A DNA stretch of 64,000 bases, from the IMG/VR virus record IMGVR_UViG_3300033149_004458, positions 16,113 to 80,112 of that record, one strand, 5' to 3'. The notes under the pieces are model-generated. The model was not told where the DNA came from, did not search any database, and saw nothing but the letters and a program-made list of their open reading frames with translations. This DNA is from a virus. Numbering within the stretch: position 1 is the first letter of the stretch; every line of letters begins with the position of its first letter. Positions 29,515 through 63,909 of this stretch are shown here, in pieces. The translations under genes and the position numbers were made by a program.

Positions 29515-29581
29515 GTTAGTTCAACCATAAGATTTCTTCGTTGTTATTAGTCAGTGAGAAGTTATCCTTTTGTCTTTCGAC

Positions 29582-29811: not shown

Positions 29812-29840
29812 ATTTTATCATGTGATGAAATTTTTGTCAA
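29812..29840 (-). promoter_or_regulatory. Sigma70-like promoter
   Basis: Minus strand TTGACA (29840-29835), 17-base spacer, TAAAAT (29817-29812). It lies just downstream of the tRNA-Trp and drives the membrane peptide at 29779 leftward. Confidence 0.75.
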
Positions 29841-29873
29841 GCCAAACCAACCGTTTTTCTTTATTGCTACAGA

Positions 29874-42510: not shown

Positions 42511-42763
42511 GTTTGCTGACCCCTATAGAGAGTGGGTTGTAGTTGCAGAGTTTCTGTTGGCCCTGGATAGGGACGCTACAATGTTTGATCTTATTAAGGT
42601 TATGTATGAGTGGAAAACCAGTTGTCCTTTTCCAGAGATGCCAGACGAAGACGTAGTTTTATCTTTATTTGATAGCGGTATGTCGCCAGTGAATATTGCT
42701 CGCAACCTTGATACAGAATCAGGAGTAGTCAGAGCGATCTTAGAGAGTTGTAAAAGGATTTAA
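42485..42763 (+). CDS. Hypothetical helix-turn-helix-like protein
   Basis: 92 residues, starting MRTKKRISEFADPYREWVVV. The C-terminal helices (FDSGMSPVNIARNLDTESGV then VRAILESCKRI) have the spacing of a small helix-turn-helix. It overlaps the resolvase end by 26 bases. It may regulate the replication block; not proven. Confidence 0.55.
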   Translation: MRTKKRISEFADPYREWVVVAEFLLALDRDATMFDLIKVMYEWKTSCPFPEMPDEDVVLSLFDSGMSPVNIARNLDTESGVVRAILESCKRI

Positions 42764-43903: not shown

Positions 43904-44108
43904 TATAGAAAATGCTATTAAGACTTTACTAGATAGCGGAGAATTTGGGAGTTACGAGAAGTTCCTCATAGATTTGTATGTCTTAGGGTTTTCTATTTCA
44001 GATATTTCTGCTATATTTGGTTGCGCCAGGTCTACATTAGACAAAGAAATGTTTAGAATTTGTAAGAGAATTGCTGACTTCCTTGGTGATAATTATTTCG
44101 AGGTATAA
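43851..44108 (+). CDS. Sigma-factor-region-4-like helix-turn-helix protein
   Basis: 85 residues from ATG 43851 (MNLDREKLDGLIPSLRFDIE). FLIDLYVLGFSISDISAIFG then CARSTLDKEMFRICKRI is a helix-turn-helix of the region-4 or small-regulator type. The N-terminal part overlaps the nuclease end by 53 bases. It may direct polymerase or act as a regulator. Confidence 0.6.
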   Translation: MNLDREKLDGLIPSLRFDIENAIKTLLDSGEFGSYEKFLIDLYVLGFSISDISAIFGCARSTLDKEMFRICKRIADFLGDNYFEV

Positions 44109-49054: not shown

Positions 49055-50770
49055 ATGAAATTATCTGAAACTGCCAAGAAGATATTAGAGAGGAAATATC
49101 TTTTAGATGGCGAGACATTTAATGATCTATGTGCCAGGGTTTCTTCCTACATTGCTCGTGCGGAAGAAGATAGAGCATATTGGACAGGAAAATTTTATCA
49201 ATTGATAAACGAAGGTTGGTTTATGCCAGGCGGGAGAATACTTGCTAATGCTGGAACAAAAAACGGAAATCTATTTAATTGTTATGCGTTAGAAGTAGAG
49301 GATAGTAGAGATAGCATATATTCTACATTGGGACTGGCAGCGGAGATATTTGCTCACGGTGGTGGGGTAGGATATAATTTTAGTAAACTTAGAGAGAGAG
49401 GAACCCCTGTATCTAATGGGAGTGCTGCTTCTGGACCAGTTTCCTTTCTAGAGCTTTATAACGTTTCTGCTTCTGTTATTAGCCAGGCCAGCAGAAGGGG
49501 GGCACAGCTTGCAGTTTTAAACGTAGATCACCCAGACATAGAGTTATTTCTAAAGGCAAAGCAAGTAGAGAACAAGCTTCCACATTTTAATATTTCTGTT
49601 GGGCTTACAGATGCTTTTATGGGAGCTGTTCAAAAAGGTGAAAAATTTTGGCTGAAATCCAGGTATGATAATTCGCCGGTTAAAGAGGTTTCAGCGAGAA
49701 AATTATTTTCCTTGGTTGCTAAAAACGCATGGCAGCGTGGAGACCCTGGGGTATTATTCGTGGATGCTCTCGAAAGAGATAATGCAGTGCCACATTTAGG
49801 GATTCTTAATACATGCAACCCATGTGGAGAGGTGCCGCTTTTGCCTAATGAGGCCTGTTGTCTCGGCGCTATAAACCTAATGATGATGTTGACTTTTCAC
49901 TCTGGAAACTGGAAGTTTGATATGGCAAAATTATCTTATGCAGTTTCTATAGCGATTAGATTCTTGGACGATGTGCATGAGGTAAACAGGCCAATTACCG
50001 AGAAGATAAAAGAAGCCTCTCTTAACACAAGAAAGCTAGGTCTGGGAGTCATGGGTTGGGCAGACATGTTAGCTAGGATGGGCATCCCATATGATTCTCA
50101 AAGAGCTAGAAACCTGGCAGAGAGTATATCAAAACAAATGCGCAGAATTGCTTATCAAACATCTAAACTTCTAGCTGAAGAGAGAGGACCCTATAGAGCC
50201 TTTGACCCCGATAGGTCCAGAAATATTTGGTACCCAGGAACTCCTGTTGTCCCTACCAGAAATGCTACCCTTATGTGCCTTGCTCCTACAGGTTCTATTT
50301 CTTTGATTGCTGGAGTTAATTCTGGAATAGAGCCATTTTTTGCACTGGCCTACACCAAGCTAGTCACAGAAGGAGAGGGAAACACAAAGTACAAGGTTAT
50401 GAATGTCAATCCTTACCTTAGTGATTACCTTGAAACCCAACCCAAGAAAGTAAGAGATAAAGTATTAGAGATAGTAAAAGAAAAAGGAAGTATACAAGAG
50501 ATAGATTTCCTGGATAATAATGTAAAAGACATTTTCAAGACTGCTCATGACATCTCTCCAATTAGCCATGTAAGGATGCAACAAGCCTGGCAACTATACA
50601 CTGATGGTTCAATAAGTAAGACAGTAAACCTACCAGAAACAGCCAGTGTAAAAGATGTAGAGGATATAATTTTGGGTGGATGGAAAGCCGGTTTAAAGGG
50701 ACTTACTATTTTCAGGGATAACTGTCTTTCATTCCAGGTTCTAAACGTGGGGGCAAATTCTGGTAGCTAA
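49055..50770 (+). CDS. nrdJ: Class II (B12-dependent) ribonucleotide reductase, zinc tail missing
   Basis: 571 residues from ATG 49055 (GGAGG 11 bases upstream; a GTG at 49037 would add six). Residues NGNLFNCYALEVED and FAHGGGVGYNFSKLRE start the barrel; LGILNTCNPCGEVPL holds the catalytic Cys-x-Glu loop; CLAPTGSISLIAGVNSGIEP is the phosphate loop. It reduces ribonucleotides with adenosylcobalamin. It ends soon after GLKGLTIFRDNCLSFQV, so the C-terminal zinc ribbon with the disulfide-exchanging Cys pair is absent. Confidence 0.93.
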   Translation: MKLSETAKKILERKYLLDGETFNDLCARVSSYIARAEEDRAYWTGKFYQLINEGWFMPGGRILANAGTKNGNLFNCYALEVEDSRDSIYSTLGLAAEIFAHGGGVGYNFSKLRERGTPVSNGSAASGPVSFLELYNVSASVISQASRRGAQLAVLNVDHPDIELFLKAKQVENKLPHFNISVGLTDAFMGAVQKGEKFWLKSRYDNSPVKEVSARKLFSLVAKNAWQRGDPGVLFVDALERDNAVPHLGILNTCNPCGEVPLLPNEACCLGAINLMMMLTFHSGNWKFDMAKLSYAVSIAIRFLDDVHEVNRPITEKIKEASLNTRKLGLGVMGWADMLARMGIPYDSQRARNLAESISKQMRRIAYQTSKLLAEERGPYRAFDPDRSRNIWYPGTPVVPTRNATLMCLAPTGSISLIAGVNSGIEPFFALAYTKLVTEGEGNTKYKVMNVNPYLSDYLETQPKKVRDKVLEIVKEKGSIQEIDFLDNNVKDIFKTAHDISPISHVRMQQAWQLYTDGSISKTVNLPETASVKDVEDIILGGWKAGLKGLTIFRDNCLSFQVLNVGANSGS

Positions 50771-50905
50771 AAGCGCCGGTTATAAGGAAATTCTGAATCG
50801 AAAGATCGCCGGTAAACGAAAACTGGTAAAGGAGAATTGAAATGTTTTATGGTAATGGTTAAGAGGGAAGGGAATAAGGTATCTAACCCTAACGGGGGGA
50901 AATAA
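50771..50905. repeat. Noncoding gap with repeat words shared with the right arm
   Basis: No gene here. It holds GCGCCGGTTATAAGG (from 50772) and GATCGCCGGTAAACG nearby, and GGTATCTAACC at 50878-50888. The same words recur at 60.66, 60.7, 63.0, 63.1, 63.2 kb. A GGAGAA-preceded ATG near 50842 gives only six codons. Confidence 0.6.
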
Positions 50906-50937: not shown

Positions 50938-51852
50938 CTACTTGAACCTTCGTGGGGAGAGAAGGGAGAGTATGCCTAGCTCTTTTACCCAAGACACTAT
51001 CTCCCGAACTGATTGGTATCGCGCTTCCTTCGCCAATAGCCATGTTCGGTACCCATTAACCCCCACATCTTCACTGTTATGGCCTGTAAGGAGTGCTTCT
51101 GTTGGTACTTCAACACTCCTGGTTGCTATTCCAAGGAGTATTGAAGTAAACGCCCAGTAGTCCCACTCTCCATACTCATGGAACCATGTGGGTAACAACT
51201 GGAGACCAAACGTACCTAGCAACCGCTCCAGCGCGTTGTCAAGACACCCACTTGGACGTATCCCACCAGCCACCCAATGTTCTCTTGGTAGGGGGGGAGC
51301 GTTTAGGCTGTCCCACCATATTCTTACCGTTTGTATCAGGTAGCTCAATACAGCGGCGCTCCCCATCAGAGAGACCGGAAAGTGCCGGATCACCCCAGGG
51401 TAATTGTTCTTATACCGCCAAGGAAAAGTTATGGTTATTGCGCTCTCCTCTGGTGGCAGCTTGCTCTTGTAGAACCTGGTTGGCTCATAAGGCCCACCAA
51501 GGTATTTACCATAAAGTCCTTTTGTGCAATAACGACCGCCCCCCTTGGTCAGTAGGTCATTGCTAATGCTGACCATAAACTTGGCCCACCGGTTAAAGCT
51601 TTGGTCAGTTGGACCGGGCCTGTCAGAACCCTTGCGGCGGTGTGGCAGGTAGATGTCGAACAGGGAAACCCTGGTGCTATCTAGCGTATTGGTCTTTACC
51701 ATCCAGCGGTACAAGTCGGTAAGGTGACCACATGCTATCTCCCTGCAGTGGCCTATATCTTTGAACCACCCATTGGTGGCACAAGGAGTATAATCAAACT
51801 TTTCTAAGAATGATACGGCTTTGCTGCTGGTCTCTACGTATATGAACATCAC
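50938..51852 (-). CDS. Unknown-family paralog C of the accessory operon
   Basis: 304 residues, starting MMFIYVETSSKAVSFLEKFD. It shares with its two neighbours the blocks GHCREIACG, SYLIQTVRIWW, LLPTWFHEYGEWDYWAFTSI, and VNGYRTWLLAKEARYQSV. No catalytic motif, signal peptide or membrane helix is recognised; the Trp/Tyr-rich central block is the most conserved. Last gene of the leftward amidoligase operon, six bases from paralog B. I do not know the function; a substrate-binding or scaffold partner of the ligases is the simplest inference. Confidence 0.7.
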   Translation of the reverse strand: MMFIYVETSSKAVSFLEKFDYTPCATNGWFKDIGHCREIACGHLTDLYRWMVKTNTLDSTRVSLFDIYLPHRRKGSDRPGPTDQSFNRWAKFMVSISNDLLTKGGGRYCTKGLYGKYLGGPYEPTRFYKSKLPPEESAITITFPWRYKNNYPGVIRHFPVSLMGSAAVLSYLIQTVRIWWDSLNAPPLPREHWVAGGIRPSGCLDNALERLLGTFGLQLLPTWFHEYGEWDYWAFTSILLGIATRSVEVPTEALLTGHNSEDVGVNGYRTWLLAKEARYQSVREIVSWVKELGILSLLSPRRFK

Positions 51853-51858
51853 TTTCTC

Positions 51859-52881
51859 CTAAAAAGAGTCAAACTTGCAGAGGGTGGGAAGCGTCCCCCT
51901 CTGTGGGGTCATGATGGCAAGCAGGCCCTCACTCTTAAGGGTTTCAAGGTGAGATGGTTTGTCCTCTAACGCATTTAACCACGTCTCATACCCGTTGATA
52001 AATATAGAATAATCCTCCTCTACCAAATGACTACCATGGCGAAGGAACACCTCGGGTGAGAGTTTCAACTTGCCCATAACAGTATCCAACAAGACACTGC
52101 TGAACCCCCAGTAGCTCCAGCCACCATAGTTGTAGAACCAAGTTGGTAACAGGTCCTTTACAAACATTCGCAAGTTCCTAAGCTCTGGGTGTACAGTGCT
52201 CTTGATGGCGAAATACCGCCAGAGATCGTTGACCCCTTTTCTTACAACTGTTGCAGACCAGATTCTCATGGTTTGCAATAAGAAGCTGGTCATAGATACA
52301 GACTTTAGAATCTCTGGGGGGATGTTTCTTATTGCACCACCCCCGACCGCTTGCACCCCTGGGTCTCTGTATACTTTCTTCACGAGAGTATCAAATTCAG
52401 GGTCGTCTAGAAGCCCGGTATCAAACTCTACTGGACACCAGGGGAGACCCGTGGTATGTGTATCATATTTCAGATAGCTACCAGTGATCTTTAGATAGTC
52501 TACCGGTGGTTGTTCCCCTAAGATGGCAAGCATGATTGATACAATCAGATTACTCCACCGCCGGTAATTGATATTGAGTCTCTCGTTTTCTCCGTGGGGG
52601 AGAGTAGAGAGATTCTTTACCATCCCCTGGAAGCCCTTGCCCTCTCTATCATAGGGAGAGGCGTTGATGAAATTTACCCCCAGAATATCTACACTGTCAA
52701 TATATTCCTCTACCGGCCCCAATTTGCTTTCTACTGTTTCCATCGCTGTAGATAGGTTGCCGGTGGCAAACTCGCGGCAGCAGCCAAGGTCGCCTGCCAT
52801 AATATCACCTGCCTGACACCGCCACAGATAGGCTAAACACTCTTTGACTCGCTCATTTTTGGTGTGGATAATTGCTATCAT
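51859..52881 (-). CDS. Unknown-family paralog B of the accessory operon
   Basis: 340 residues, starting MIAIIHTKNERVKECLAYLW. Shared blocks: LGCCREFATGNLS, SFLLQTMRIWS, LLPTWFYNYGGWSYWGFSSV and FINGYETWLNALEDKPSHL. The middle contains a variable stretch not matching the other two. It overlaps paralog A by four bases (ATGA), so the three are translated together. No recognised domain. Confidence 0.7.
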   Translation of the reverse strand: MIAIIHTKNERVKECLAYLWRCQAGDIMAGDLGCCREFATGNLSTAMETVESKLGPVEEYIDSVDILGVNFINASPYDREGKGFQGMVKNLSTLPHGENERLNINYRRWSNLIVSIMLAILGEQPPVDYLKITGSYLKYDTHTTGLPWCPVEFDTGLLDDPEFDTLVKKVYRDPGVQAVGGGAIRNIPPEILKSVSMTSFLLQTMRIWSATVVRKGVNDLWRYFAIKSTVHPELRNLRMFVKDLLPTWFYNYGGWSYWGFSSVLLDTVMGKLKLSPEVFLRHGSHLVEEDYSIFINGYETWLNALEDKPSHLETLKSEGLLAIMTPQRGTLPTLCKFDSF

Positions 52882-53864
52882 CTTCCTAACCTCACTGGCA
52901 AATTTTCTCTGGCTGATATAAGAGACTTGACCCCATCTTGTCTTAGCATATTCTTGGTATAGGTTATTTCGGGGTGGCTTCTACCAGCAAACGCCAGCCA
53001 CGACCTATACCCATTTACACCGTTGTATTGACTTCTTGATGACATTGTGAGGTCCTCAAATGTCACCCCAAACTTGCCAATACCAAAAGCTGCTCCTAGT
53101 AAGACGGTGGCAAATGCCCAATAATCCCACCCCCCGTAAGAGTAGAACCAAAAGGGCAGCAGCTTGGTACCAAGGGGAGCAATTGGCTGTATTATAGCCG
53201 ACTGACGCGGCCCAAGATACCGGCTCATGAGACTCAATCCTGGAGTCTCCGCAACCGTAGCCCAAATTCTTAGAGTTTGGACCAGGAAGCTAATTACCGG
53301 GGTGGCTGGCATCAACTCAACTGGCAACCTGAGTATGGTACCAGTCATATCGCTATATTCCATATTTTGTAGTAAATGTTTTTCTACCCCTGCCCTGTTT
53401 ACATAATATTGTGTCTCAGGGCGGGTTATAAGGTTGGTGCTGTCCCAAAAAACCTTGGGACTCACCAGCCCTGCATAGAGCTTGTAGTACGTTTTGGTAG
53501 GAAGTGTTTCTCCTGGATGGTTATGGAGAAACATTGTTAAGCCTACTACAATGTCCATCCACCGCTTCACCCAGTTACCAAACCTCTTATCCTTCACTTG
53601 CAGGGTATTCATTGGAAGGTCATAAGAATATCCCCTGATGCCCATAATACTGAAATACCTAATTTCCGGGTATTTCCTAACATACCCATAAGTATTTCCA
53701 AGTAGAGAGCAAAGTACCTCTCTACATGAAGAGGTGCTTCTGACTATTGACCTTCCGCGTCCAGGTACCGTCCACCCAGAAACATAAGGCCAATTAGGCA
53801 GAGCGCCAAGCTCACTCACCACCGGGTGTTTGCTAGAAGGAAGCGTAATATGAACTAACATCAT
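52878..53864 (-). CDS. Unknown-family paralog A of the accessory operon
   Basis: 328 residues, starting MMLVHITLPSSKHPVVSELG. Shared blocks: SSCREVLCSLLG, SFLVQTLRIWA, LLPFWFYSYGGWDYWAFATV and VNGYRSWLAFAGRSHPE. It follows the phiEco32-type amidoligase with a four-base overlap. All three paralogs are divergent from each other, so the duplication is old. No recognised domain. Confidence 0.7.
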   Translation of the reverse strand: MMLVHITLPSSKHPVVSELGALPNWPYVSGWTVPGRGRSIVRSTSSCREVLCSLLGNTYGYVRKYPEIRYFSIMGIRGYSYDLPMNTLQVKDKRFGNWVKRWMDIVVGLTMFLHNHPGETLPTKTYYKLYAGLVSPKVFWDSTNLITRPETQYYVNRAGVEKHLLQNMEYSDMTGTILRLPVELMPATPVISFLVQTLRIWATVAETPGLSLMSRYLGPRQSAIIQPIAPLGTKLLPFWFYSYGGWDYWAFATVLLGAAFGIGKFGVTFEDLTMSSRSQYNGVNGYRSWLAFAGRSHPEITYTKNMLRQDGVKSLISARENLPVRLGR

Positions 53865-54691
53865 TCTACCTCCACCCAGCGGCCAATACCCCCGCTGCGG
53901 TCTTTTGGTATTGGAGGGAATCCAGTGAGGTCATATAGCTCTTCCGCGCTTTCCGGTTTATTTGCGGTTAAGACTTCCCACAGCAGATATGACGGGAAAA
54001 TCTTGTCAAACTTGAAACCACCAAGTGCCTTCTCTACCGCCATCTTTCCTACTTCTAGAGTAAAGCGGTATAGCTCTGGGTTACCGAGAATGAGGTTGGA
54101 GGGAGTTCTATACTCTATTCCGTGAGGCTGAATCCGATAGATGCCCGGTCTACCGTAGATTGCTCTCCGTCGGAGGTCTCTGTCCCCAGAGACCACAACA
54201 GAGATTAACCCAACGGTATAGTCAAGACCTCTGATAATTCTCACTGCCTCAACCTCGTTTGGTGGGGATGGTAGACCAAAGTGGATATGCGCTCCTGCGT
54301 AGCGCCAAGGGTGGTTGGGAACATCTATTTTATCTAGAGCCCGTTTCTCACCCCAGGCACTCTTATCCGGGTCGCAACCAAATACCGCCAATTGCTTGTC
54401 TCGCTTGGCCCACTTCAGGTCAAAGGGAACCTGGGGTTCGATTATAATCTCTGCAAGATCACCAAAAAGCATTTGAGCCAGTACCAATAGCTCTTTTATG
54501 TTTTTGGTGAGCTGGGCGGGTGTTGGGTCAGGCAGGGGTTGAAGCTCCAGGGCTGCTCCATCCACATAAAGACTACCGCTTGGGGTGACAAGAGTATGTT
54601 CGATGTAGTGCTTATCGAAGATCACCCCAGCAGGTAATACCTGCCCCTCTACTGAAAAGAACATTTCCGGGTCAGCACCTAGTGTAATCAT
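53861..54691 (-). CDS. PhiEco32-type COOH-NH2 ligase (amidoligase type 2)
   Basis: 276 residues. MITLGADPEMFF, LYVDGAALELQPLPDPTP, AGAHIHFGLPSP and YRTPSNLILGNPELY are the motifs of the phage phiEco32-like COOH-NH2 ligase family: a glutamine-synthetase-like fold that joins a carboxyl to an amine using ATP. It is expected to make amide or isopeptide bonds on small metabolites or proteins. It overlaps the zinc-ribbon gene by four bases and paralog A by four. Confidence 0.85.
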   Translation of the reverse strand: MITLGADPEMFFSVEGQVLPAGVIFDKHYIEHTLVTPSGSLYVDGAALELQPLPDPTPAQLTKNIKELLVLAQMLFGDLAEIIIEPQVPFDLKWAKRDKQLAVFGCDPDKSAWGEKRALDKIDVPNHPWRYAGAHIHFGLPSPPNEVEAVRIIRGLDYTVGLISVVVSGDRDLRRRAIYGRPGIYRIQPHGIEYRTPSNLILGNPELYRFTLEVGKMAVEKALGGFKFDKIFPSYLLWEVLTANKPESAEELYDLTGFPPIPKDRSGGIGRWVEVE

Positions 54692-55077
54692 TGTTCCTCC
54701 TTAACTGTGTTGAGTAGATTACATTTGTCTCTAAATATACACGCTTTGCAATACTCTTCCCTCTGTCTCACACAATGTTCGCAGAGGTAGGAATTGCGAT
54801 CGTAACAGTAAAACCTAGGGGCGTCTTCCGCCTTGGTGGTCAAGGTCGCCCCGCAAGAGTTGCAATATATTATCACCTCATAGTGGTCAATATCACTACC
54901 ACAAGAGCGACAATGATACCCCACAATCTTTACAGGTCCTATCTGCTCCCCTGGTCCCTCACTTACAAGTGCCAGAACACCATTCTGGTCTGGCGACACG
55001 CAAGCAGGGAAGGCCAGGAGAACCTGACCCTTTACAATAATATCTCTACTACCACATTTGGGACAATGTATAGACAT
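54688..55077 (-). CDS. Multi-zinc-ribbon protein
   Basis: 129 residues with four or more Cys pairs: CPKCGSRDIIV, HCRSCGSDID, YCNSCGATLT, LCEHCVRQREEYCKACIFRD. It is likely to hold two or three zinc ions. It lies between the unknown 120-residue gene and the amidoligase, overlapping the latter. It may recruit the enzymes to nucleic acid or a protein target; this is inference. Confidence 0.7.
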   Translation of the reverse strand: MSIHCPKCGSRDIIVKGQVLLAFPACVSPDQNGVLALVSEGPGEQIGPVKIVGYHCRSCGSDIDHYEVIIYCNSCGATLTTKAEDAPRFYCYDRNSYLCEHCVRQREEYCKACIFRDKCNLLNTVKEEQ

Positions 55078-55082
55078 TATAC

Positions 55083-55445
55083 CTACTCCTTATCAGAGTG
55101 CCAGAAAATACTCACAGGTCTTTGAAAGAACTCACCCAACACCCTCTCCCATTTTGCTTTTATCCTCTCTGAGTACTGTCCACGTACCCAGAGATCATAC
55201 ATAATTTCATTGTTTCGTTTCACCATCACGATGTCCATTATTGTAAATGGTTTGGAGTGTTTGTATGGATCGCCTTCAGCGAACCACACACCCCAAGCCT
55301 CGTTCAGGTATGAGTGTAGTCTGGTAAGAACGCCCCTATCTTTGGCTTGCTGCCAGGTCAAAAGACAATCTACCCAAGTATTCCATTGGACTTTCCTTAC
55401 CACACTTTCGACTACCAGGGAGTCAAATTTCTCAAAGGACAACAT
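55083..55445 (-). CDS. Hypothetical accessory-operon protein
   Basis: 120 residues from ATG 55445, preceded by AGGGGGTAGCC (an earlier frame start at 55610 would lie inside the upstream gene). It reads MLSFEKFDSLVVESVVRKVQ, rich in Trp. No recognised domain. It overlaps the upstream gene by 14 bases. Confidence 0.6.
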   Translation of the reverse strand: MLSFEKFDSLVVESVVRKVQWNTWVDCLLTWQQAKDRGVLTRLHSYLNEAWGVWFAEGDPYKHSKPFTIMDIVMVKRNNEIMYDLWVRGQYSERIKAKWERVLGEFFQRPVSIFWHSDKE

Positions 55446-56151
55446 GGCTACCCCCTGCGGGTGCAGTGGTGTGCCCAACAAAACTTTGGCATAGTTCCTG
55501 CACCCGGTGATAATGATAATTGAAGAAGTTAGCCTTGAATAGAGATATGGGTTCCTTGTCTCGGCATGCAGCCTCCCCAAGGAAAAACCAAGTGACCGGC
55601 ACAAGGTCATCTACATCTGCATAGGCAATCTCTACCATCCCCTGGTAAGAGAGAGTACAGATTGCCGCCACCGACACGCCAAACGTACTTGTGCCAAGTA
55701 GCCTGACCACACGGTTCCCAATGTAGACAACCGAGACCTGCTTCACTGTTCGGCGAAGTACCTCCCACCCAAATTGAGATAGAGAGGTTACCTTAACCAC
55801 AGGAGTAAGCTCAACACCTAGAGCATGAGCCAGCTCTTTGGTGTTACGTTGAGAGGCACAAGTCAAATTCCACTGGTTATCGAAAAACCACTCCTCACCG
55901 ATCGGGCTTAGCGGCTCCACCGCCGCCAAAACACTGTCTGGCGGGCACTTACCCTGGGAGAAGGTTGTTGCTCTCTCCAGGTTAATTTTCCCCTGGGAAG
56001 GGAATCGCATGATTACACCAGGGGAATACCCCTCTAGTGTAATGTCTACCTCGAATGGCTCTAGGGAGAGCAATAGACGGACCAAATCCTCCGGGTTGAG
56101 GTACTTTCCCGGTGCAAGTGCTGGCAAACTGTGGTTTATCGATACTATCAT
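55432..56151 (-). CDS. Hypothetical accessory-operon protein
   Basis: 239 residues, starting MIVSINHSLPALAPGKYLNP. Mixed alpha/beta with a late HYHRVQELCQSFVGHTTAPA segment. No recognised family or catalytic motif. It overlaps the RuvB-like gene by four bases and so is co-translated with it. Function unknown. Confidence 0.6.
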   Translation of the reverse strand: MIVSINHSLPALAPGKYLNPEDLVRLLLSLEPFEVDITLEGYSPGVIMRFPSQGKINLERATTFSQGKCPPDSVLAAVEPLSPIGEEWFFDNQWNLTCASQRNTKELAHALGVELTPVVKVTSLSQFGWEVLRRTVKQVSVVYIGNRVVRLLGTSTFGVSVAAICTLSYQGMVEIAYADVDDLVPVTWFFLGEAACRDKEPISLFKANFFNYHYHRVQELCQSFVGHTTAPAGGSHVVL

Positions 56152-56897
56152 GCTATTGTCCTTCCTCTACTTGTTATGGTTATTCTACCTTCACGAAGTA
56201 GCCATTCTTCTACCCTATCCAACTCTACGGAGTCTAGCGATAGGATAGCCTGCATGGTCCTCCGTGATTTTGGTCCTGTCTCTAGAGCTTTGAGGTATCT
56301 TCGATCTATGGGTGTTGTCCCGTCTCTATCAATACCCATAGCAGCAAAGAAACCCATTACCACCTCCAGGCTTAATGGGTGTCCATCAAACCTGGAAACA
56401 TCAATAAACTTGTTGATGAGTTCTACCACCCTCCGTGGGTTACCCTTGGCCCGTGAAGCTACCTCGAAGGCAACTTCATCTGGTATAGCTGCCTTTGCAT
56501 GTAGCTTCGCTATTTCTGCCAGCTGGTCTACCGTGTAGTCATCCATTCTAAACGTGATACACCGACTGATAAACGGTTCTGGTAACTTCCCTGCCATATT
56601 GGAGCAGAAGATCATTCGGTTTTGCTCCATAGCAGGGTAAATCTTTTCAAAGTTCCCTGACCAAACATGGATCTCATCTATGATGTGGACCATCGCGTCA
56701 GGGTGTATAACTACACCATTACGTCCTGGAATCTGCATGGTGTAGGTTCCTACCATTGCAGCTAGAGCTTCTGCAAAGGTGGTCTTGCCATAGCCATAAT
56801 GACCGCGCAACAGAATTGACCAGGTATTATTCTGCGTCATTATGGCAAGACAGCGCGTTTTCAATTTGTCTTGCCCAATCAATTTGTATAGGTTCAT
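56148..56897 (-). CDS. RuvB-like AAA+ ATPase
   Basis: 249 residues. Walker A LLRGHYGYGKTTFAEAL, Walker B MVHIIDEIHVWSG, sensor 1 MIFCSNMAGKLP, Arg-finger region EPFISRCITFRM, sensor 2 KGNPRRVVELINKF. The C-terminal winged helix MGIDRDGTTPIDRRYLKALE ... EWLLREGRITITSRGRTIA matches RuvB (DRRYL; G.I..T.RGR) closely. RuvB proper drives branch migration with RuvA/RuvC; none of those is next to it. Here it sits inside the amidoligase operon, so it may serve as a motor or a DNA-linked switch. Confidence 0.88.
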   Translation of the reverse strand: MNLYKLIGQDKLKTRCLAIMTQNNTWSILLRGHYGYGKTTFAEALAAMVGTYTMQIPGRNGVVIHPDAMVHIIDEIHVWSGNFEKIYPAMEQNRMIFCSNMAGKLPEPFISRCITFRMDDYTVDQLAEIAKLHAKAAIPDEVAFEVASRAKGNPRRVVELINKFIDVSRFDGHPLSLEVVMGFFAAMGIDRDGTTPIDRRYLKALETGPKSRRTMQAILSLDSVELDRVEEWLLREGRITITSRGRTIA

Positions 56898-57618
56898 AGT
56901 TATCGATATTCTCTCTTAACCACCTATCCAGCTCTCTTCCATAGAACAGAAGGGAAATCTGGTTGAGGGATGGCCCGGTATTGACCTCGAAGACTACATA
57001 CTTTCTAGTAGTCTCTGACCATCCGAGGTCAACTGCTCCAAAGGTAAGCCCAAGGGCAGCAACCGCTTTTACTGCCACCCTCTGGCCCACTTTATAATGT
57101 TCTTCACCATTAACCCTGGAATACCCCCACCCTCTCAGAGATGTTCGTATTCTAGAGTCAGCCTCTGGTACTCTAGGTACTTTTCTGAACACCCTGAGAG
57201 CCTTGTCACCAAACACATGCACTCTCAGCTCCAGGTCTACCGGAATATACCCAGTGAAAAACCTAGAATTGGAACTTAGAGCCTCTTCTTTGTTCTCACA
57301 CCACTGTATATCCAATCCAGCACGGTGGTTTATTCTTCTTCCTAGTATAGGATAGCCATCGTCTGGTGGCTCCAGAAAGACTGGTGGGGTGTTAACCCCC
57401 TCTTCCTGGAGTCTTTGTAGAGAAGCTAACCCATTGCTGGTAAGCAATATGGACTCCCTGCTATTGATGGTACTCTCAGTATCAACAGCGGAGAGACTGC
57501 TACCCCACCGGACGACGACCGTGGTATATCTATTTGGCACGCGCCTGGGTCTCAAACCCAACAGGCGAGCCAAAGCTCTACCAGTAACGCAAGTGCTTCT
57601 ATGGTATAAGATGTCCAT
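56827..57618 (-). CDS. ATP-grasp ligase
   Basis: 263 residues from ATG 57618 (a GTG at 57621 is also possible). The C-terminal half has the ATP-grasp pattern: VDLELRVHVFGDKALRVFRK, LGLTFGAVDLGWSE and KYVVFEVNTGPSLNQISLLF with the metal-binding E-x-N. The N-terminal half has the TSNGLASLQRLQEEGVNTPP PEP-like stretch of RimK-type enzymes. It ligates a carboxylate to an amine using ATP. The stop-start overlap with the amidotransferase is TGATG. Confidence 0.85.
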   Translation of the reverse strand: MDILYHRSTCVTGRALARLLGLRPRRVPNRYTTVVVRWGSSLSAVDTESTINSRESILLTSNGLASLQRLQEEGVNTPPVFLEPPDDGYPILGRRINHRAGLDIQWCENKEEALSSNSRFFTGYIPVDLELRVHVFGDKALRVFRKVPRVPEADSRIRTSLRGWGYSRVNGEEHYKVGQRVAVKAVAALGLTFGAVDLGWSETTRKYVVFEVNTGPSLNQISLLFYGRELDRWLRENIDNYEPIQIDWARQIENALSCHNDAE

Positions 57619-58748
57619 CACATCTCCAATGAGAGACGCAGAAGGTCTAATGTCTCTAGGTCGTTCATAAACCAGGGAAACTCCAAGTTCATGAACTCAC
57701 CAAATAGGTCATAGGGGTCTTTGTACTCGGCTACCAGCTCATTCCAGATAATTTCTGCAACTTCTATATTCGGTTTATTCTGATAGTGCTCCCTGGAGAG
57801 CTTTTTGAGTACCGCTAATGCAGCCTCTGGATCGACCACGTCATACCAGGGCTTTTCATGCAACCTCTCTAAAGCATATTTTGCTTCCAGAAAGCCTACC
57901 CCTGGAATACTGTCCACCGCCTCAGCTAAAGAGACTGCGCGGTCTATCGTCCCAGTAGCTACACCTGAGACAAAGTTGGTGGTCTTGTGAACCACTGTGG
58001 GTTTAGGTCTGGGTATGGAGGCGACTTTCTCCAACTCACCCCCATCTTTGAACCTATAAATAGTGTCCATCTCTAGAAGTTCAGTAGGTCCAATCTCCCA
58101 CTCATCTAACCCGAGCAGAGCCTGGGTTAGCTTAACCCTCTCTGCAACCTCTTGGAGGTTCTTTTCTGATGTGTTTATTACCACCAGAGGACCAAACTTG
58201 GCTTGGTAGAGGGAATTCGACCCCCTCACCACCCAGATAGTCTTACATTCATAGTCATAAATCAGGAAGGCAAAACTTCCGGTAAATAACTTAATTGTGT
58301 CGGTAATACTCTCTGCGGTAATGGGCTTCTTTTTTGCCAGTACCGCAGTGAATACGTGACTATCCACCGGGTCATTTCCCAAATCTATATTCTCGTCTTT
58401 CATTACCTTTTGATAGTTCAGCAGCGTGCCATTGTGGGCTACTGCTACACCATTTACCAAAAATGGGTGAGCGCCTTCCCGTGCCCGCTGACCCGTGGAG
58501 ATTGCCCGAACGTGGGCAATCAGCGGGTAACCGCCATTCTCTACAATGGCTTTCTTGTAATCATCAGAAACCACGATGGTTTCTGCTGGCCTCTCCCACT
58601 TCACTACACCCCAGGGAGAGGCAAAACCTACCCCATCTCGATTCCCCATACTATTGCGTATGAGGAGATTAGATAAAAATAGGTTGGTCACCTTTACCTC
58701 TTTCTCATTTAACTCACGTGTCGGATAGATGCTAGTTAACATACACAT
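57618..58748 (-). CDS. Class II glutamine amidotransferase
   Basis: 376 residues. The chain begins MCMLTSIYP, so removal of Met leaves the catalytic N-terminal Cys of the Ntn-hydrolase glutaminase. NRDGVGFASPWG, LIAHVRAISTGQRAREGAHP and VAVAHNGTLLNYQ are the family motifs. It releases ammonia from glutamine to feed the ligases. The C-terminal 150 residues have no recognised synthetase domain, so the ammonia acceptor is presumably one of the neighbouring amidoligases. Confidence 0.9.
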   Translation of the reverse strand: MCMLTSIYPTRELNEKEVKVTNLFLSNLLIRNSMGNRDGVGFASPWGVVKWERPAETIVVSDDYKKAIVENGGYPLIAHVRAISTGQRAREGAHPFLVNGVAVAHNGTLLNYQKVMKDENIDLGNDPVDSHVFTAVLAKKKPITAESITDTIKLFTGSFAFLIYDYECKTIWVVRGSNSLYQAKFGPLVVINTSEKNLQEVAERVKLTQALLGLDEWEIGPTELLEMDTIYRFKDGGELEKVASIPRPKPTVVHKTTNFVSGVATGTIDRAVSLAEAVDSIPGVGFLEAKYALERLHEKPWYDVVDPEAALAVLKKLSREHYQNKPNIEVAEIIWNELVAEYKDPYDLFGEFMNLEFPWFMNDLETLDLLRLSLEM

Positions 58749-59866
58749 TATTCATTCTCCCAATGTAAAGTACCAAGATGAGTTGTCAACGGTGGGTGTC
58801 CTTGTACTAATGGGGCACCGTCAAACCCTGTTGGTCCAAACTCACGCGGCAGCTCCTCTGGCTCTGGGGGTATGATTTCTGGCCTTACACCATACCAAGC
58901 CACTGGGTGCCCTATATGACCCAATTGAGGACTACGGACTGGCGGCGGGAAGTCGGACAAACCCCAGAGCTCCTCCAGAACATAAGTCAGGTTATTGTCC
59001 AACATGAGGAACTCTACTACATCTTCTAGAGCTATTTGGGTGGTCCCTAGAGGGTTATAATCTAAGATGGTTCTCTTTGCAAAAGAGTTTCGCACTATCT
59101 CTTTACAAAGAGAAACCCAAGCCCACACAAAGGTGGGTCTCTGGGTGAAATTAAATAGTCTAAACTCTATTGAGCCGTATACCATAAAGCTCAGGGGGTT
59201 AAGCCAAACGTACCTGGCTTCATGGTACTTCCCTCCACCCCAGCGGTCGTATCTACCAACCGCTTGACGGTACTCTTTCCAGGACTGAACGTTGAGAATC
59301 TGGTTCAGTCCAAATACCGGTCTAGTGACTGTATCAGTGGGAGTACACGGGGGACCCGGTATGGTCAGAGGCCGACAATACCCATAGTCGTTTCTCAGCG
59401 AACCACGGTGTATACCGGCCTCTCCGCAGGCCAACCGATACATAGCAGCTTCCAGGTGAGCCGCTATTAGAAATAAATACTTGAGAGCAAACAGGGGGAA
59501 CCCTGTAACATTTACATGGACATGAATCGAGGTTCTGGCGTCCACCCCCTCACCATGTTGGCGGAGCCAGGTTATTATTCTCTTTACATTGGACAACCAC
59601 CTATCATTGGTGGTATCAAGCATAGGAGAAACGAACTCCCCACCGAACATCCTATAACCACCAGAGGAGAGCTCCAGCCCAGAATTGAGGGCGTAACGGT
59701 AATTTCTGGTAGAACCATCTTCTACCAATCGCCACCGTATACTTCGAGCCAAATCTCTAGCGTTCGCCTTAGGTATATTGGCGAACTCTATTTCTAACCC
59801 TATACTCTCTATTATAGATGCCATAGTCGCCCTTTCTGGTGCTACAATTTCTATTGTGGAAGGCAT
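58748..59866 (-). CDS. Amidoligase (PF12224-like)
   Basis: 372 residues from ATG 59866 (an inner ATG at 59824 is also possible; the frame extends upstream to 59989 but there it would cover the promoter). SIIESIGLEIEFANIP, RWRLVEDGSTRN, GGEFVSPMLD and the ligand-binding ARTSIHVHVNVTGFPLFALK are the family motifs: a glutamine-synthetase fold. It is the first gene of the leftward operon, 37 bases after the -10 box of a dedicated promoter. It overlaps the glutamine amidotransferase by one base. Confidence 0.85.
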   Translation of the reverse strand: MPSTIEIVAPERATMASIIESIGLEIEFANIPKANARDLARSIRWRLVEDGSTRNYRYALNSGLELSSGGYRMFGGEFVSPMLDTTNDRWLSNVKRIITWLRQHGEGVDARTSIHVHVNVTGFPLFALKYLFLIAAHLEAAMYRLACGEAGIHRGSLRNDYGYCRPLTIPGPPCTPTDTVTRPVFGLNQILNVQSWKEYRQAVGRYDRWGGGKYHEARYVWLNPLSFMVYGSIEFRLFNFTQRPTFVWAWVSLCKEIVRNSFAKRTILDYNPLGTTQIALEDVVEFLMLDNNLTYVLEELWGLSDFPPPVRSPQLGHIGHPVAWYGVRPEIIPPEPEELPREFGPTGFDGAPLVQGHPPLTTHLGTLHWENE

Positions 59867-59902: not shown

Positions 59903-59931
59903 ATTATAACAGCTGGTTAAAAAAAAGACAA
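59903..59931 (-). promoter_or_regulatory. Leftward operator-promoter P4 of the amidoligase operon
   Basis: Minus strand TTGTCT (59931-59926), 17-base spacer carrying TTAACC at positions 6-11, TATAAT (59908-59903). GGTTAA lies 17 bases before that TTAACC (59943-59938), so the -35 box is inside GGTTAA-N17-TTAACC. Confidence 0.8.
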
Positions 59932-59987
59932 GCCAAATTAACCAAAATCTTTTTTTCTGGTTAATCTTCCTTGACAAAAAATTAACC
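59915..59987. promoter_or_regulatory. Operator array: four 6-bp half-sites between divergent promoters
   Basis: GGTTAA 59915-59920, TTAACC 59938-59943, GGTTAA 59959-59964, TTAACC 59982-59987. Starts are 23, 21 and 23 bases apart, about two helix turns. Each pair forms GGTTAA-N17-TTAACC across one promoter. Confidence 0.85.
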
Positions 59988-59999
59988 AACCGCTAAAAT
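59971..59999 (+). promoter_or_regulatory. Rightward operator-promoter P1
   Basis: TTGACA (59971-59976), 17-base spacer with TTAACC at 59982-59987, TAAAAT (59994-59999); GGTTAA at 59959-59964. It drives the gene at 60039. Confidence 0.85.
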
Positions 60000-60038
60000 A
60001 AAAGAAATTGCCATTCCTATACTATAGTGGAGGGAGAA

Positions 60039-60401
60039 ATGCCTAGAAAAAGTAGAGAGCGTGGGGAGGACACAAGGTATACTTCCCACTATATTTGTAC
60101 CGTCTTTGACGAAACAGATGGTACATTCTATATAGTGGGGGGTCAGGGTCAAGCGGAAGTGTTGGTAGATATGCTGAAGGAAGAGGGGCATAGTCTCTAC
60201 AAGTGGCGGTGGGAAGATGATAGTACCCGCCACTATAAGATAGTAGAGAAGAATGGTAGAACCAGGTACGGGGTTCAGCCAGACGAGGATGTCTGGTGGG
60301 ACCAACTGGTGGTTCTACCGGGAGAGGCAGATTTTAGGTTGACCATTCTTAACCTCTGGGGACGGCAGAGGTCAGATGGTGTGATAGAGGTGCTCAAATG
60401 A
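60039..60401 (+). CDS. Hypothetical protein under P1
   Basis: 120 residues from ATG 60039, preceded by GTGGAGGGAGAA. It reads MPRKSRERGEDTRYTSHYIC, then IVGGQGQAEVLVDMLKEEGH and a beta C-terminus with WWDQLVVLPGEADFRL. It is the first gene of the rightward part of the regulon. No recognised domain; it could be a regulator, but no helix-turn-helix is seen. Confidence 0.65.
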   Translation: MPRKSRERGEDTRYTSHYICTVFDETDGTFYIVGGQGQAEVLVDMLKEEGHSLYKWRWEDDSTRHYKIVEKNGRTRYGVQPDEDVWWDQLVVLPGEADFRLTILNLWGRQRSDGVIEVLK

Positions 60402-60652
60402 CCACAAAATTTGAAACTCTCAAGCAGAGAGCCAACCAGGTACTTTTAAGACTAGAGCGGGTATCTGGTAGCGGAGTGGTGCATACCAAAAATACATATA
60501 TAGCAAAAATTCACCACCTGGTGAAACATATTGAAAAGAAAGGTGAACATATACATATAGACGCCAGTGGTTATAGCGATCACACCCTCCGCGGATTAGA
60601 GCGGCTTGTCAATGAAGCCGAACGTTGGTGTAGAGAGAAGGGATTCTGGTAG
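60398..60652 (+). CDS. Hypothetical protein
   Basis: 84 residues, starting MTTKFETLKQRANQVLLRLE, basic with several His (TYIAKIHHLVKHIEKKGEHI). It overlaps the upstream gene by four bases. Possibly nucleic-acid binding from its charge. No known family. Confidence 0.6.
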   Translation: MTTKFETLKQRANQVLLRLERVSGSGVVHTKNTYIAKIHHLVKHIEKKGEHIHIDASGYSDHTLRGLERLVNEAERWCREKGFW

Positions 60653-60850
60653 AAACAGTCGCCGGTTATATGGGTCCATACTTGATAGTCCGGTTAGATT
60701 TTAGGTAAAAATGATCGCCGGTTATAATTGAACCAGACTATCAAGAACTAGCAGAGGTGAGATTTGATTATAGGGTTAACTTCTGCCAAGGGCGGTTATT
60801 CTGAGACCTTTATATACGCGCGTGCGCACGCGCGTATAGGTGAACTGCTC
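60653..60850. repeat. Repeat-rich gap before promoter P2
   Basis: It holds GTCGCCGGTTATATGG (from 60658) and GATCGCCGGTTATAATT (from 60713), a near-perfect inverted repeat (CTTGATAGTCCGGTT 60681-60695 against AACCAGACTATCAAG 60731-60745, one mismatch), GGCGGTTATT at 60791, and the CG palindrome. No gene. Confidence 0.7.
60813..60838. repeat. 26-bp perfect palindrome of alternating purine-pyrimidine
   Basis: TATACGCGCGTGC followed at once by its reverse complement GCACGCGCGTATA. Every step alternates purine and pyrimidine, the pattern that favours Z-DNA, and it can also extrude a cruciform. It ends one base before the GGTGAA half-site of P2. Confidence 0.9.
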
Positions 60851-60879
60851 TTGACAAAGAGTTAACCATGTGCTAGAAT
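60839..60879 (+). promoter_or_regulatory. Rightward operator-promoter P2
   Basis: TTGACA (60851-60856), 17-base spacer with TTAACC at 60862-60867, TAGAAT (60874-60879). The upstream half-site is GGTGAA (60839-60844), one base off GGTTAA, again 17 bases from TTAACC. Confidence 0.85.
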
Positions 60880-60885
60880 TGGGAT

Positions 60886-61025
60886 GTAGGGCAGGCCATC
60901 CGGTTAACCTGCTCTGCCCGGTGAAGGCAAATCTGGTGAAAAGGGAGGTGGTGAGTTCTTGTCGCCTTGCCCGAACCGAGAGATGTTGGAACCGGAACAT
61001 CAAAATAATTACGGAGGTAGATAAA
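60886..61025 (+). other. 140-base leader with hairpin and GGTTAACC site
   Basis: From the expected transcription start to ATG 61026. GGGCAG (60889-60894) can pair with CTGCCC (60914-60919), and GGTTAACC at 60902-60909 is an extra overlapping pair of half-sites. The start GGGATGTAGGG is shared with P3. No other gene is seen. Confidence 0.55.
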
Positions 61026-61331
61026 ATGCCAGCTAGGACAACCGCTAAGAGGACAACCGCCAGTAGTCGTACACCGAGATCGGTCACAGAGATCCTTGGT
61101 GAGCACACCGACCTGAGTTTGCTTCGGATTAACATCGTCGGCGTGACCAGTGATGGTCAGGAAGTTCAGCTTGGTACTATCACAGCACCACCTAAGAAGA
61201 GCTCACGCGGGTCAGTCATGTTCTATGGTTTTGGAAAATTGGCTGATCCAACCCCCACGGCTCTTGATACCGGCAACCGGGGGCTACAGGTTGGTGCATC
61301 ACTGACTTACATTAAGAGCAACGGCTGGTAA
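61026..61331 (+). CDS. Small basic protein with very strong ribosome binding site
   Basis: 101 residues from ATG 61026, preceded by GGAGGTAGATAAA. The N-terminal 22 residues are Thr/Arg rich (MPARTTAKRTTASSRTPRSV), the rest beta rich with a Gly-rich C-terminus (DTGNRGLQVGASLTYIKSNG, ending W). A strong terminator follows. It is the first gene after P2 and is likely to be highly expressed; it could be a structural or modified substrate protein, but no family is recognised. Confidence 0.7.
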   Translation: MPARTTAKRTTASSRTPRSVTEILGEHTDLSLLRINIVGVTSDGQEVQLGTITAPPKKSSRGSVMFYGFGKLADPTPTALDTGNRGLQVGASLTYIKSNGW

Positions 61332-61336
61332 AGATT

Positions 61337-61366
61337 GGGGGAGAGAGGTGAAAGCTTCTCTCCCCC
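61337..61366 (+). terminator. Hairpin terminator after the 101-residue gene
   Basis: GGGGGAGAGA (61337-61346) pairs perfectly with TCTCTCCCCC (61357-61366) across a 10-base loop, followed by CCTCTTTTATC. It probably ends most transcripts here while allowing some read-through. Confidence 0.75.
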
Positions 61367-61392
61367 CCTCTTTTATCTAAGGAAGGTGAAAA

Positions 61393-61569
61393 GTGAATTG
61401 GATACAGATTATCTATCTGGCGGTAGCAGTGTTGGGGTTGGCCGCTCTGCTACTACCGGATGACCAAACAGAGGGCGACCCCAGAGGGCAGACGAACCAG
61501 CTTGGTAGAAACGCCGCTGGAGTGGCACTGCTACTTGCTGGTGGAGTATTTGTGTTTCTATTTCTCTAG
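61393..61569 (+). CDS. 58-residue two-helix membrane protein (holin-like size)
   Basis: GTG 61393 after AAGGAAGGTGAAAA reads MNWIQIIYLAVAVLGLAALL, a polar loop (PDDQTEGDPRGQTNQLGRNA), then GVALLLAGGVFVFLFL before TAG. Two membrane helices joined by a charged loop is a common small-holin layout, but no lysis enzyme is next to it, so it may instead belong to the modification system. Confidence 0.6.
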   Translation: MNWIQIIYLAVAVLGLAALLLPDDQTEGDPRGQTNQLGRNAAGVALLLAGGVFVFLFL

Positions 61570-61580
61570 AAGGAGGTAAA

Positions 61581-61877
61581 ATGCCAGCATTGGTTGTGCA
61601 GCTTGTCAGAAATGCCGATGGTTACCGTGGTGACCTAAGTTGCGTTGGAATTCTCACCCCGTATACCGCTAAGTATGTCGGCGGTAACGGGGACCCAGAT
61701 ACCCATGAGGTTTGGGTTGGCAACAGCCTCGTCGGTCATCTCCGAGTCTGGTATGGCTCTGGAGGCCACGGTAAGCTGGCGGCCTCGGAGTTTATACCAT
61801 TTTCTGGTGTCAGGGTTGAGTGGGTGGACCGGAACACTTATTGGAAAATAAGAAGGGAGGTAAACAGTGCCTTATAG
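61581..61877 (+). CDS. Hypothetical beta-rich protein
   Basis: 98 residues from ATG 61581, preceded by AAGGAGGTAAA, among the strongest ribosome binding sites in the window. It reads MPALVVQLVRNADGYRGDLS and is beta rich with a Gly/His segment (YGSGGHGKLAASEFIPFSGV). It overlaps the next gene by 11 bases. No known family. Confidence 0.65.
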   Translation: MPALVVQLVRNADGYRGDLSCVGILTPYTAKYVGGNGDPDTHEVWVGNSLVGHLRVWYGSGGHGKLAASEFIPFSGVRVEWVDRNTYWKIRREVNSAL

Positions 61878-62085
61878 GTGGGCAGGGGAAATCAGGGTTG
61901 GGGAGGCGCGGGAATTGCTTGTCCTGTTCGATGACTTGTTGCAGGATGGGACGCCAATTACCCAAGCCCGACTCAACCAAAAAGCCGCAAATGCACTTAT
62001 TGCGGTCACAAACACGCTACGTGGTATCTCCTCTATGGTGGTAACGTTCACGTTAAGTGTAGAGGAAGGGGGTGATGCAGAATAA
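61867..62085 (+). CDS. Hypothetical helical protein (GTG start)
   Basis: 72 residues with a GTG start after AAGGGAGGTAAACA. It reads MPYRWAGEIRVGEARELLVL then an alpha-helical core and an acidic end (LSVEEGGDAE). It overlaps the previous gene. Function unknown. Confidence 0.6.
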   Translation: MPYRWAGEIRVGEARELLVLFDDLLQDGTPITQARLNQKAANALIAVTNTLRGISSMVVTFTLSVEEGGDAE

Positions 62086-62100
62086 ACCTGGGGGTGGATA

Positions 62101-62136
62101 TTGTTGGGGAGGGTAACGCTCGGCTCTCCCCAACAA
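62101..62136 (+). terminator. 11-bp stem-loop before the 223-residue gene
   Basis: TTGTTGGGGAG (62101-62111) pairs perfectly with CTCCCCAACAA (62126-62136) over a 14-base loop, followed by CCTTATTTCT. It may be an intrinsic terminator or an attenuator between the two genes. Confidence 0.65.
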
Positions 62137-62156
62137 CCTTATTTCTAGGAATTATT

Positions 62157-62828
62157 ATGGGTAGAAATATTAAGGGTAAAATCTTAGCACCGGTGGCTTT
62201 CCTGATAGGGGTATTTATGGGAAGGCCATTAAGTGCTACCTGGCTCTTTCATTACCTCTGGGGCAGCGGGAAAGATAGAAAACTACCCAGAAGGTATGAG
62301 CAAGAGCTACTAACGGCTTACCTTCGGTTTTATGTCAGAGTAGAAGGTAAGAGAAGAAGTATAGGTCCTATGACCACGGGGGACCTGTATACTACAGTAG
62401 GAGAGATAACCGTCTGGGAAGAGGACGGTAGACTGTTTTACCACGATAAATATGACTGGCACCCAGGTAAAAAGTGGGTTTTCGATGCTTACTTATTTGG
62501 GCTGCCATTTACCATTTGCGTTCGTGGCAAAGACGAAATGTTCAACCACGTCGGTAAAAGCTTTGCCACGAAAGGTAGTATAAAAATAATTCCAGAAAAC
62601 CAAAAAGAGATAAAACATATCGAGCCCCTGGTAGACCTGACTTCGGTATATAATGATATCAAATATCAGATCTATCATCTTTGGTGGGCTATAGAAGAGG
62701 CAGCAACAGGTAGAAGAGTCTCGTACACCGAAATCATTAATTACCTGCCCCCAGACCACCTCTTCTATAGGGCACTTACCTATTCAGGTAAAGCGAAAAG
62801 AAAGAGAAAGAGAGTAAGAAGAGGTTGA
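62157..62828 (+). CDS. Hypothetical basic protein with N-terminal hydrophobic segment
   Basis: 223 residues from ATG 62157 after TCTAGGAATTATT (an earlier frame start at 62094 would lie in the hairpin). The N-terminal IKGKILAPVAFLIGVFMGRP could be a signal or membrane anchor; the centre is beta rich and aromatic (VWEEDGRLFYHDKYDWHPGK), the end very basic (GKAKRKRKRVRRG). The family is not recognised. Membrane localisation is inferred. Confidence 0.65.
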   Translation: MGRNIKGKILAPVAFLIGVFMGRPLSATWLFHYLWGSGKDRKLPRRYEQELLTAYLRFYVRVEGKRRSIGPMTTGDLYTTVGEITVWEEDGRLFYHDKYDWHPGKKWVFDAYLFGLPFTICVRGKDEMFNHVGKSFATKGSIKIIPENQKEIKHIEPLVDLTSVYNDIKYQIYHLWWAIEEAATGRRVSYTEIINYLPPDHLFYRALTYSGKAKRKRKRVRRG

Positions 62829-63366
62829 GGGATTTGGTCAACTATTAAAACCCCCAATTTTACCATTTTCCCCGAATTACCCCCGTGAAAACCCCAATTA
62901 CTGAACGTTGTTTTACCCCCAAAATTGCCTACCAACTCAGGTAAGCGTTTTCTGCGGTTACTAAAGCACATAAGTAAACTTAACCTGGGCAATAAAAGCC
63001 TTCTGAGATTAGGTATCTAACCTAAATTTGGGTGGAAAATTATTCCGGTTACGCAAGCATTTACTCAGGTTTAACCAGCAACCAGTTTATATTGAAGTAG
63101 TTAGAAGCTGGTCTTGATATGGTATCTAACCTGAAGAGAACTATTGGTGAAGTTAGATTTTTGGTAAATTCTTTTGGCGGTTATATTTGTTTTGGTTGGT
63201 TAGCAACCGATTTTGGCTACTTGTCAGATGTAATGAGGTATCTAACCTTGGCAGGCAGTGGAAACAGAAACTTTCCAGATTTGGAAACATGATATTCGAG
63301 AAACTTTCCATGCGCACCATTTATATAGGGCCAGGGAGTCTGGCATCTAGTATAGGTTAACTGCAC
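62829..63366. repeat. Repeat-rich 540-base gap before promoter P3
   Basis: No gene. It holds five C-tracts (62851-62855, 62870-62873, 62880-62884, 62892-62895, 62916-62920), three GGTATCTAACC words (63012-63022, 63121-63131, 63237-63247), GTTAGATTTTTGGTAAATTC and GGCGGTTATATTT near 63152-63187, and a 12-bp direct repeat AGAAACTTTCCA (63266-63277 and 63299-63310). Confidence 0.75.
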
Positions 63367-63395
63367 TTGACTTGGAATTAACCTTATGATATACT
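63355..63395 (+). promoter_or_regulatory. Rightward operator-promoter P3
   Basis: TTGACT (63367-63372), 17-base spacer with TTAACC at 63378-63383, TATACT (63390-63395). The upstream half-site GGTTAA is exact (63355-63360), 17 bases from TTAACC. The leader starts GGGGATGTAGGG as in P2. Confidence 0.85.
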
Positions 63396-63455: not shown

Positions 63456-63665
63456 ATGAATGAGAGGTTATTGCGGGAGTGGGTGGGGGAGGTAGTAGAG
63501 GTTATCCAGGGAAGACTCTCCGTGAGGGGAGTTCTCCGTAAGGAAACCAGCGGATACGCTATTTACCGTAGTGGGTTCATCGGCGGGTTTGCTGCTTTCA
63601 CCGCTGATGAGGTAAGGAAGGTCAGTCTCATGGAGAGCTGGCCGGTAATCTTTTTGGAGGGGTAA
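63456..63665 (+). CDS. Hypothetical small protein under P3
   Basis: 69 residues from ATG 63456, preceded by ATGGAGGTAAAC. It reads MNERLLREWVGEVVEVIQGR, mostly beta and helix with a hydrophobic C-terminus (SLMESWPVIFLEG). It is the first gene after P3. No known family. Confidence 0.65.
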   Translation: MNERLLREWVGEVVEVIQGRLSVRGVLRKETSGYAIYRSGFIGGFAAFTADEVRKVSLMESWPVIFLEG

Positions 63666-63666
63666 A

Positions 63667-63909
63667 ATGAAAAAGAGTTTCTGGGTTATTTTTGTTCCGT
63701 CGAACCCGCCTCAAGGGCAGGTGACCACCTCGGAGGCAACCGTCAGGCACATTAAGGCGGTTGCCGAAGACCACCGCCGGAGGGGCCACCCCTACCGGTG
63801 GCCATGGGCCGAGGCACGAGGACCCTACCAAAGCAAGGAAGAGGCGGAAGAGGTCCTTGACCAATTAATGAAGCCCTCTCGGTTTTGGTGGTGGGAGGAG
63901 GAAGAATGA
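63667..63909 (+). CDS. Hypothetical basic/acidic protein
   Basis: 80 residues from ATG 63667 after GGAGGGGTAAA. It reads MKKSFWVIFVPSNPPQGQVT, then an Arg-rich middle (AEDHRRRGHPYRWPWAEARG) and an acidic end (RFWWWEEEE). No known family. It follows the previous gene by one base. Confidence 0.6.
   Translation: MKKSFWVIFVPSNPPQGQVTTSEATVRHIKAVAEDHRRRGHPYRWPWAEARGPYQSKEEAEEVLDQLMKPSRFWWWEEEE

Follow-up and report, generated by a model that had tools for sequence, protein, structure and literature searches.

The accessory region of an uncultured bacterial virus carries four promoters whose -35 boxes are flanked by the same pair of half-sites, raising the question of whether a single protein controls them all and, if so, whether it blocks or recruits RNA polymerase. 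The DNA analysed (the window) is a 64,000-nucleotide stretch, bases 16113-80112 of an 80,112-base virus record, and window numbering is used unless stated. Both ends of the record share a 114-base repeat, from which a complete genome, circular or circularly permuted, is probable. It encodes a PolA-type polymerase, UvsX, DnaB, a primase, ribonucleotide reductase and a tape-measure protein. In the searched collections the phage is without a close relative. Comparison with phage and plasmid DNA by similarity gave no match to it, and protein searches with the terminase, PolA, amidoligase, UvsX, ribonucleotide reductase and a 222-aa protein found no relative closer than ~30% identity, the single-protein contig search relying on short exact peptides that moderately distant relatives may escape.

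A symmetric site in fixed register at five promoters

The original prediction held that leftward P4 and rightward P1, P2 and P3 each place GGTTAA 17 bases before TTAACC around the -35 box. A pattern scan of the window confirms this at all four, with fixed offsets from the -35 and -10 boxes. Three copies are exact (P4, P1 and P3) and one has a single mismatch, GGTGAA in P2, which is indeed the lone differing base across the eight half-sites. The remaining matches in the window carry two or three mismatches and occur at the frequency expected by chance. Extending the search to the rest of the genome reveals a fifth site (P5), also exact and in the promoter register of the other four, which, given a circular or circularly permuted genome, lies ~1.3 kb past P3. 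The sites and their core promoters are as follows.

59915-59943, minus strand: P4 operator, exact, toward the amidoligase operon (pattern scan)
59903-59931, minus strand: P4 core promoter, -35 TTGTCT at 59931-59926, -10 TATAAT at 59908-59903, spacer 17; read leftward, GGTTAA TTTGGC TTGTCT TTTTT TTAACC AGCTGT TATAAT
59959-59987, plus strand: P1 operator, exact (pattern scan)
59971-59999, plus strand: P1 core promoter, -35 TTGACA at 59971-59976, -10 TAAAAT at 59994-59999, spacer 17; GGTTAA TCTTCC TTGACA AAAAA TTAACC AACCGC TAAAAT
60839-60867, plus strand: P2 operator, one mismatch, GGTGAA (pattern scan)
60851-60879, plus strand: P2 core promoter, -35 TTGACA, extended -10 TAGAAT, spacer 17; GGTGAA CTGCTC TTGACA AAGAG TTAACC ATGTGC TAGAAT
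63355-63383, plus strand: P3 operator, exact (pattern scan)
63367-63395, plus strand: P3 core promoter, -35 TTGACT, extended -10 TATACT, spacer 17; GGTTAA CTGCAC TTGACT TGGAA TTAACC TTATGA TATACT
Record 765-793 (G000:C1:765-793), outside the window: P5 operator, exact; GGTTAA AGGGGC TTGACT TCTGA TTAACC ATATGC TATACT

The genome thus holds four exact copies in addition to P2. All copies with at most one mismatch stand at promoters and none lies elsewhere in the genome, so that the many off-promoter copies that would speak against a shared operator are not seen. The reversed pattern, used as a genome-wide control, has no copies. Dinucleotide shuffles (n=200) give a mean of 0.005 exact copies per genome against the four observed, and 3000 such shuffles of the 5.9-kb accessory region give 0.0023 per region. 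Among all exact pairings of GGTTAA and TTAACC at gaps of 0-59, only the inverted N17 arrangement (four pairs) and a direct N13 arrangement (three pairs) recur, the latter belonging to a separate repeat array.

All five sites share one order, namely half-site, 6 nt, -35, 5 nt, half-site, 6 nt and -10, with a 17-nt promoter spacer. In the usual numbering the half-sites occupy -47 to -42 and -24 to -19, with centres near -44.5 and -21.5, placing the dyad at ~-33 and the half-sites 23 bp apart centre to centre, about one helical turn either side of the -35 box. Each of the ten half-sites is preceded by A or T (WGGTTAA). The operator is symmetric and restricted to promoters, and its inner bases outside the -35 box are free to vary. 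The core promoters are near consensus, with a TG one base upstream of the -10 box in four of the five.

The phage λ activator CII uses direct repeats one turn apart that flank the -35 box of weak promoters. Half-sites on either side of the -35 box are likewise found here, as would be expected of an activator that recruits polymerase in the manner of CII. The phage half-sites are, however, inverted and 23 bp apart centre to centre, and the promoters are near consensus rather than poor, making such an activator quite improbable. A repressor is favoured because the core promoters are near consensus. GGTTAA-N17-TTAACC, with its WGGTTAA half-sites, is probably the operator of a single dimeric repressor, bound so as to occlude the -35 box. 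One DNA-binding dimer, probably phage-encoded, would occupy both half-sites, cover the face at -35 on which sigma region 4 docks and so block RNA polymerase. The promoters, mostly of the extended -10 type, would then stay repressed as long as the dimer is neither lost nor out-titrated. The site, its register, its confinement to promoters and its conservation are observed directly, whereas the dimeric state, the repression, its timing and the encoding of the regulator by the phage are inferred.

Conservation of the half-sites and relatives in the left arm

A shared site could also reflect the copying of one promoter, with no regulator involved. P2, P3 and P5 agree at 24-34 of the 57 positions outside the half-sites; the match between P2 and P3 is 79% over 61 nt, and P3 and P5 share 29 of the 57 other positions. 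These three are likely duplicates and, as related copies, are therefore not fully independent sites. Comparison of P1 or P4 with this trio gives a different result, as only 10-22 of the 57 other positions are shared, the low end being near random, while 11-12 of the 12 half-site bases are retained, which is better preservation than that of the -10 boxes. Duplication on its own is thus highly improbable as the source of the likeness, and selection on the half-sites appears to be the simplest reason for their retention. The symmetry of the half-sites, their fixed register, the lack of copies elsewhere and a conservation exceeding that of the surrounding promoter DNA together fit a shared operator for one dimeric factor.

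The left-arm and replication promoters at 29486, 36278 and 38124 had been described as free of the motif. They were compared within a set of eight further promoters close to consensus (spacer 17, perfect -35 and no more than one mismatch in the -10), two of which, both in the left arm, have relatives of the operator in register.

29498-29526, minus strand: degraded operator GGTTGA-N17-CTTACC, 9/12 in register, with -35 TTGACA at 29514-29509 and -10 TATAAT at 29491-29486; read leftward, GGTTGA-N6-TTGACA-N5-CTTACC-N6-TATAAT
29824-29852, minus strand: degraded operator GGTTGG-N17-TTCATC, 8/12 in register, with -35 TTGACA at 29840-29835 and -10 TAAAAT at 29817-29812; read leftward, GGTTGG-N6-TTGACA-N5-TTCATC-N6-TAAAAT

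The other six score 3-5/12. The description therefore holds for 36278 and 38124, which both score 3/12, and fails for 29486. Random positions reach a score of at least 9 at a frequency of 0.00066 and at least 8 at 0.0037, and two in-register relatives among eight promoters are unlikely by chance, though the count is post hoc. Both may represent relics or else operators of low strength. The proposal of a regulon under one dimeric factor that occludes the -35 region is partly supported: a shared operator fits, and the membership is wider than first described through the fifth site and the two degraded left-arm sites. Occlusion itself is suggested by the position of the dyad and the strength of the promoters.

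A separate resemblance is seen at L005:1580-1630, where TTGTGT-N17-TATAAT presumably serves the 222-aa gene as promoter and GGTCAT and TGACCT occupy the operator register. They form an inverted GGTCA-N18-TGACC, possibly a further degraded operator.

Candidate regulators and known parallels

No CI/Cro-like or other clear repressor was identified by Pfam or PHROGs in the regions scanned, which cover the tail and structural genes in part. Within the same scope, no HTH repressor gene was found next to the operators as in λ CI/Cro-type immunity. No integrase was seen, and a lysogeny repressor would therefore be without an obvious partner. Two phage proteins are the best candidates by sequence, their tie to the operator being conjectural.

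43767-44108, plus strand: sigma-region-4-like protein (HTH), candidate phage transcription regulator (PHROG sigma factor, E 7.6e-5)
42485-42763, plus strand: weak candidate regulator, a small protein whose C-terminus is HTH-like (low-confidence model)

Structure models of two candidate proteins were too poor for use (pLDDT 41 and 51).

The closest working parallel, and the best described, appears to be protein p4 of phage phi29. One p4 dimer binds inverted hexamers that are widely spaced, ~two turns apart, and overlie the -35 box of early promoters transcribed by the host polymerase; at A2c and A2b, its long-spaced inverted repeats span that box (PMC3100819). The p4 sites are A-tract based (CTTTTT-15-AAAATG, with three A-tracts), and four of them form one cluster that acts as a switch with A3 (PMC3100819). 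The phage operator is likewise a long-spaced inverted repeat over the -35, with its dyad at ~-33 and half-sites 23 bp apart, but it differs in its GGTTAA half-sites, its spacing of 17 and its spread over at least five promoters rather than a single cluster of four.

This precedent raises the prospect of a p4-like switch protein, which would repress over one -35 and activate the neighbouring promoter, and could shift transcription between the gene sets at P4 and P1. These promoters are divergent, with each operator centre computed to lie at ~-77 of the other promoter, and the presence of the sigma-region-4-like protein points to modification of host transcription by the phage. However, family searches of the scanned regions yielded no p4 homologue, the -35 and -10 boxes of P1 and P4 are good enough to require no activator, and a divergent partner is absent at the other three sites. 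Such a switch is rather unlikely.

A second comparison is with the operators and stoperators of L5 and TipsytheTRex, cluster A mycobacteriophages in which one repressor site is found at many places in the genome, some of them promoters (PMC9283540). That site is 13 bp, asymmetric, bound by a monomer and also present in intergenic gaps (PMC9283540). The repetition of one site across a phage genome is common to both systems, whereas the site described here is symmetric and confined to promoters. Since its sequence and layout differ from both, the operator is classed neither with p4 sites nor with L5 stoperators.

Pattern scans of viral contigs revealed no related phage with the motif, returning chance or unrelated matches only. 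One lies within a coding region of an AT-rich phage (L007), another within a short ORF (L016), and a third is a short-palindrome site upstream of an ORF in another phage (L017). A literature search for the half-site in connection with operators or repressors gave nothing relevant.

A host protein is a possible regulator. The phage may have borrowed the operator of a host repressor dimer, so that its genes track host physiology, and the lack of an obvious phage repressor in the regions scanned is consistent with this. The full pattern is also present at one promoter in a Bacillota MAG, upstream of a surface-protein/ABC-transporter operon (L015:6721-6761). Yet this is a single copy in a 1.5-Mb MAG, in a scan for which ~0.5 chance matches are estimated. 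Its half-sites are each part of a short TTAACC-NN-GGTTAA-like palindrome, unlike those of the phage. A host origin for the repressor is accordingly judged unlikely.

Putatively controlled genes and intergenic repeats

Under the favoured reading of a dimeric repressor, the repressed set would comprise the amidoligase operon behind P4 and the small genes behind P1, P2, P3 and P5, with weaker sites at the two left-arm promoters.

58748-59866, minus strand: first P4 gene, amidoligase-like (Pfam Amidoligase_2)
60039-60652, plus strand: two P1 genes (60039-60401, 60398-60652), no family match
61026-62828, plus strand: small P2 genes (61026-61331, 61393-61569, 61581-61877, 61867-62085, 62157-62828), no family match
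63456-63909, plus strand: two small P3 genes, no family match

P5 likewise heads small genes without a family match. The leftward set headed by P4 runs on to 50938 and encodes amidoligase, GATase, COOH-NH2 ligase and clamp-loader-like proteins; this operon (50938-59866) suggests a peptide-type modification. Joint control of a set of mostly small, uncharacterised genes by a single protein is most likely. The operator is sharply defined and testable, and joins ~ten genes of no known function to the amidoligase operon. It could be used as bait for its regulator, and the order of repression is predicted to follow the grading of the sites, which runs from 12/12 down to 8/12.

A different set of repeats lies between genes. 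The unit, ~TTCTGGTRR-N11-SGGTTA, often with a second GGTTA 19 bases on, occurs 11 times on the plus strand, distributed over five gaps that follow rightward ORFs (window 50762-50890, 60648-60740 and 62940-63240; L005:579-705 and 1133-1335). Two further matches on the minus strand look like chance. No RNA family or shared fold was found for the arrays, and an RNA role is unsupported; possible readings are binding arrays, stoperator-like sites and a replication element. A more far-reaching proposal is that the operator marks a phage-wide regulon whose dimeric regulator is an unrecognised phage protein of a new type. Site quality would set how this protein grades the accessory, amidoligase and left-arm promoters, and the GGTTA arrays would provide it with a second set of sites. 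This is speculative and considered doubtful.

Interleaved with the arrays is GGTATCTAACC, present in seven exact copies, all on the plus strand (window 50878, 63012, 63121 and 63237; L005:560, 739 and 1104). A further element, GTGGAAACAGAAACTTTCCA, has two exact copies, which precede P3 (window 63258) and the promoter of the 222-aa gene (L005:1436), respectively.
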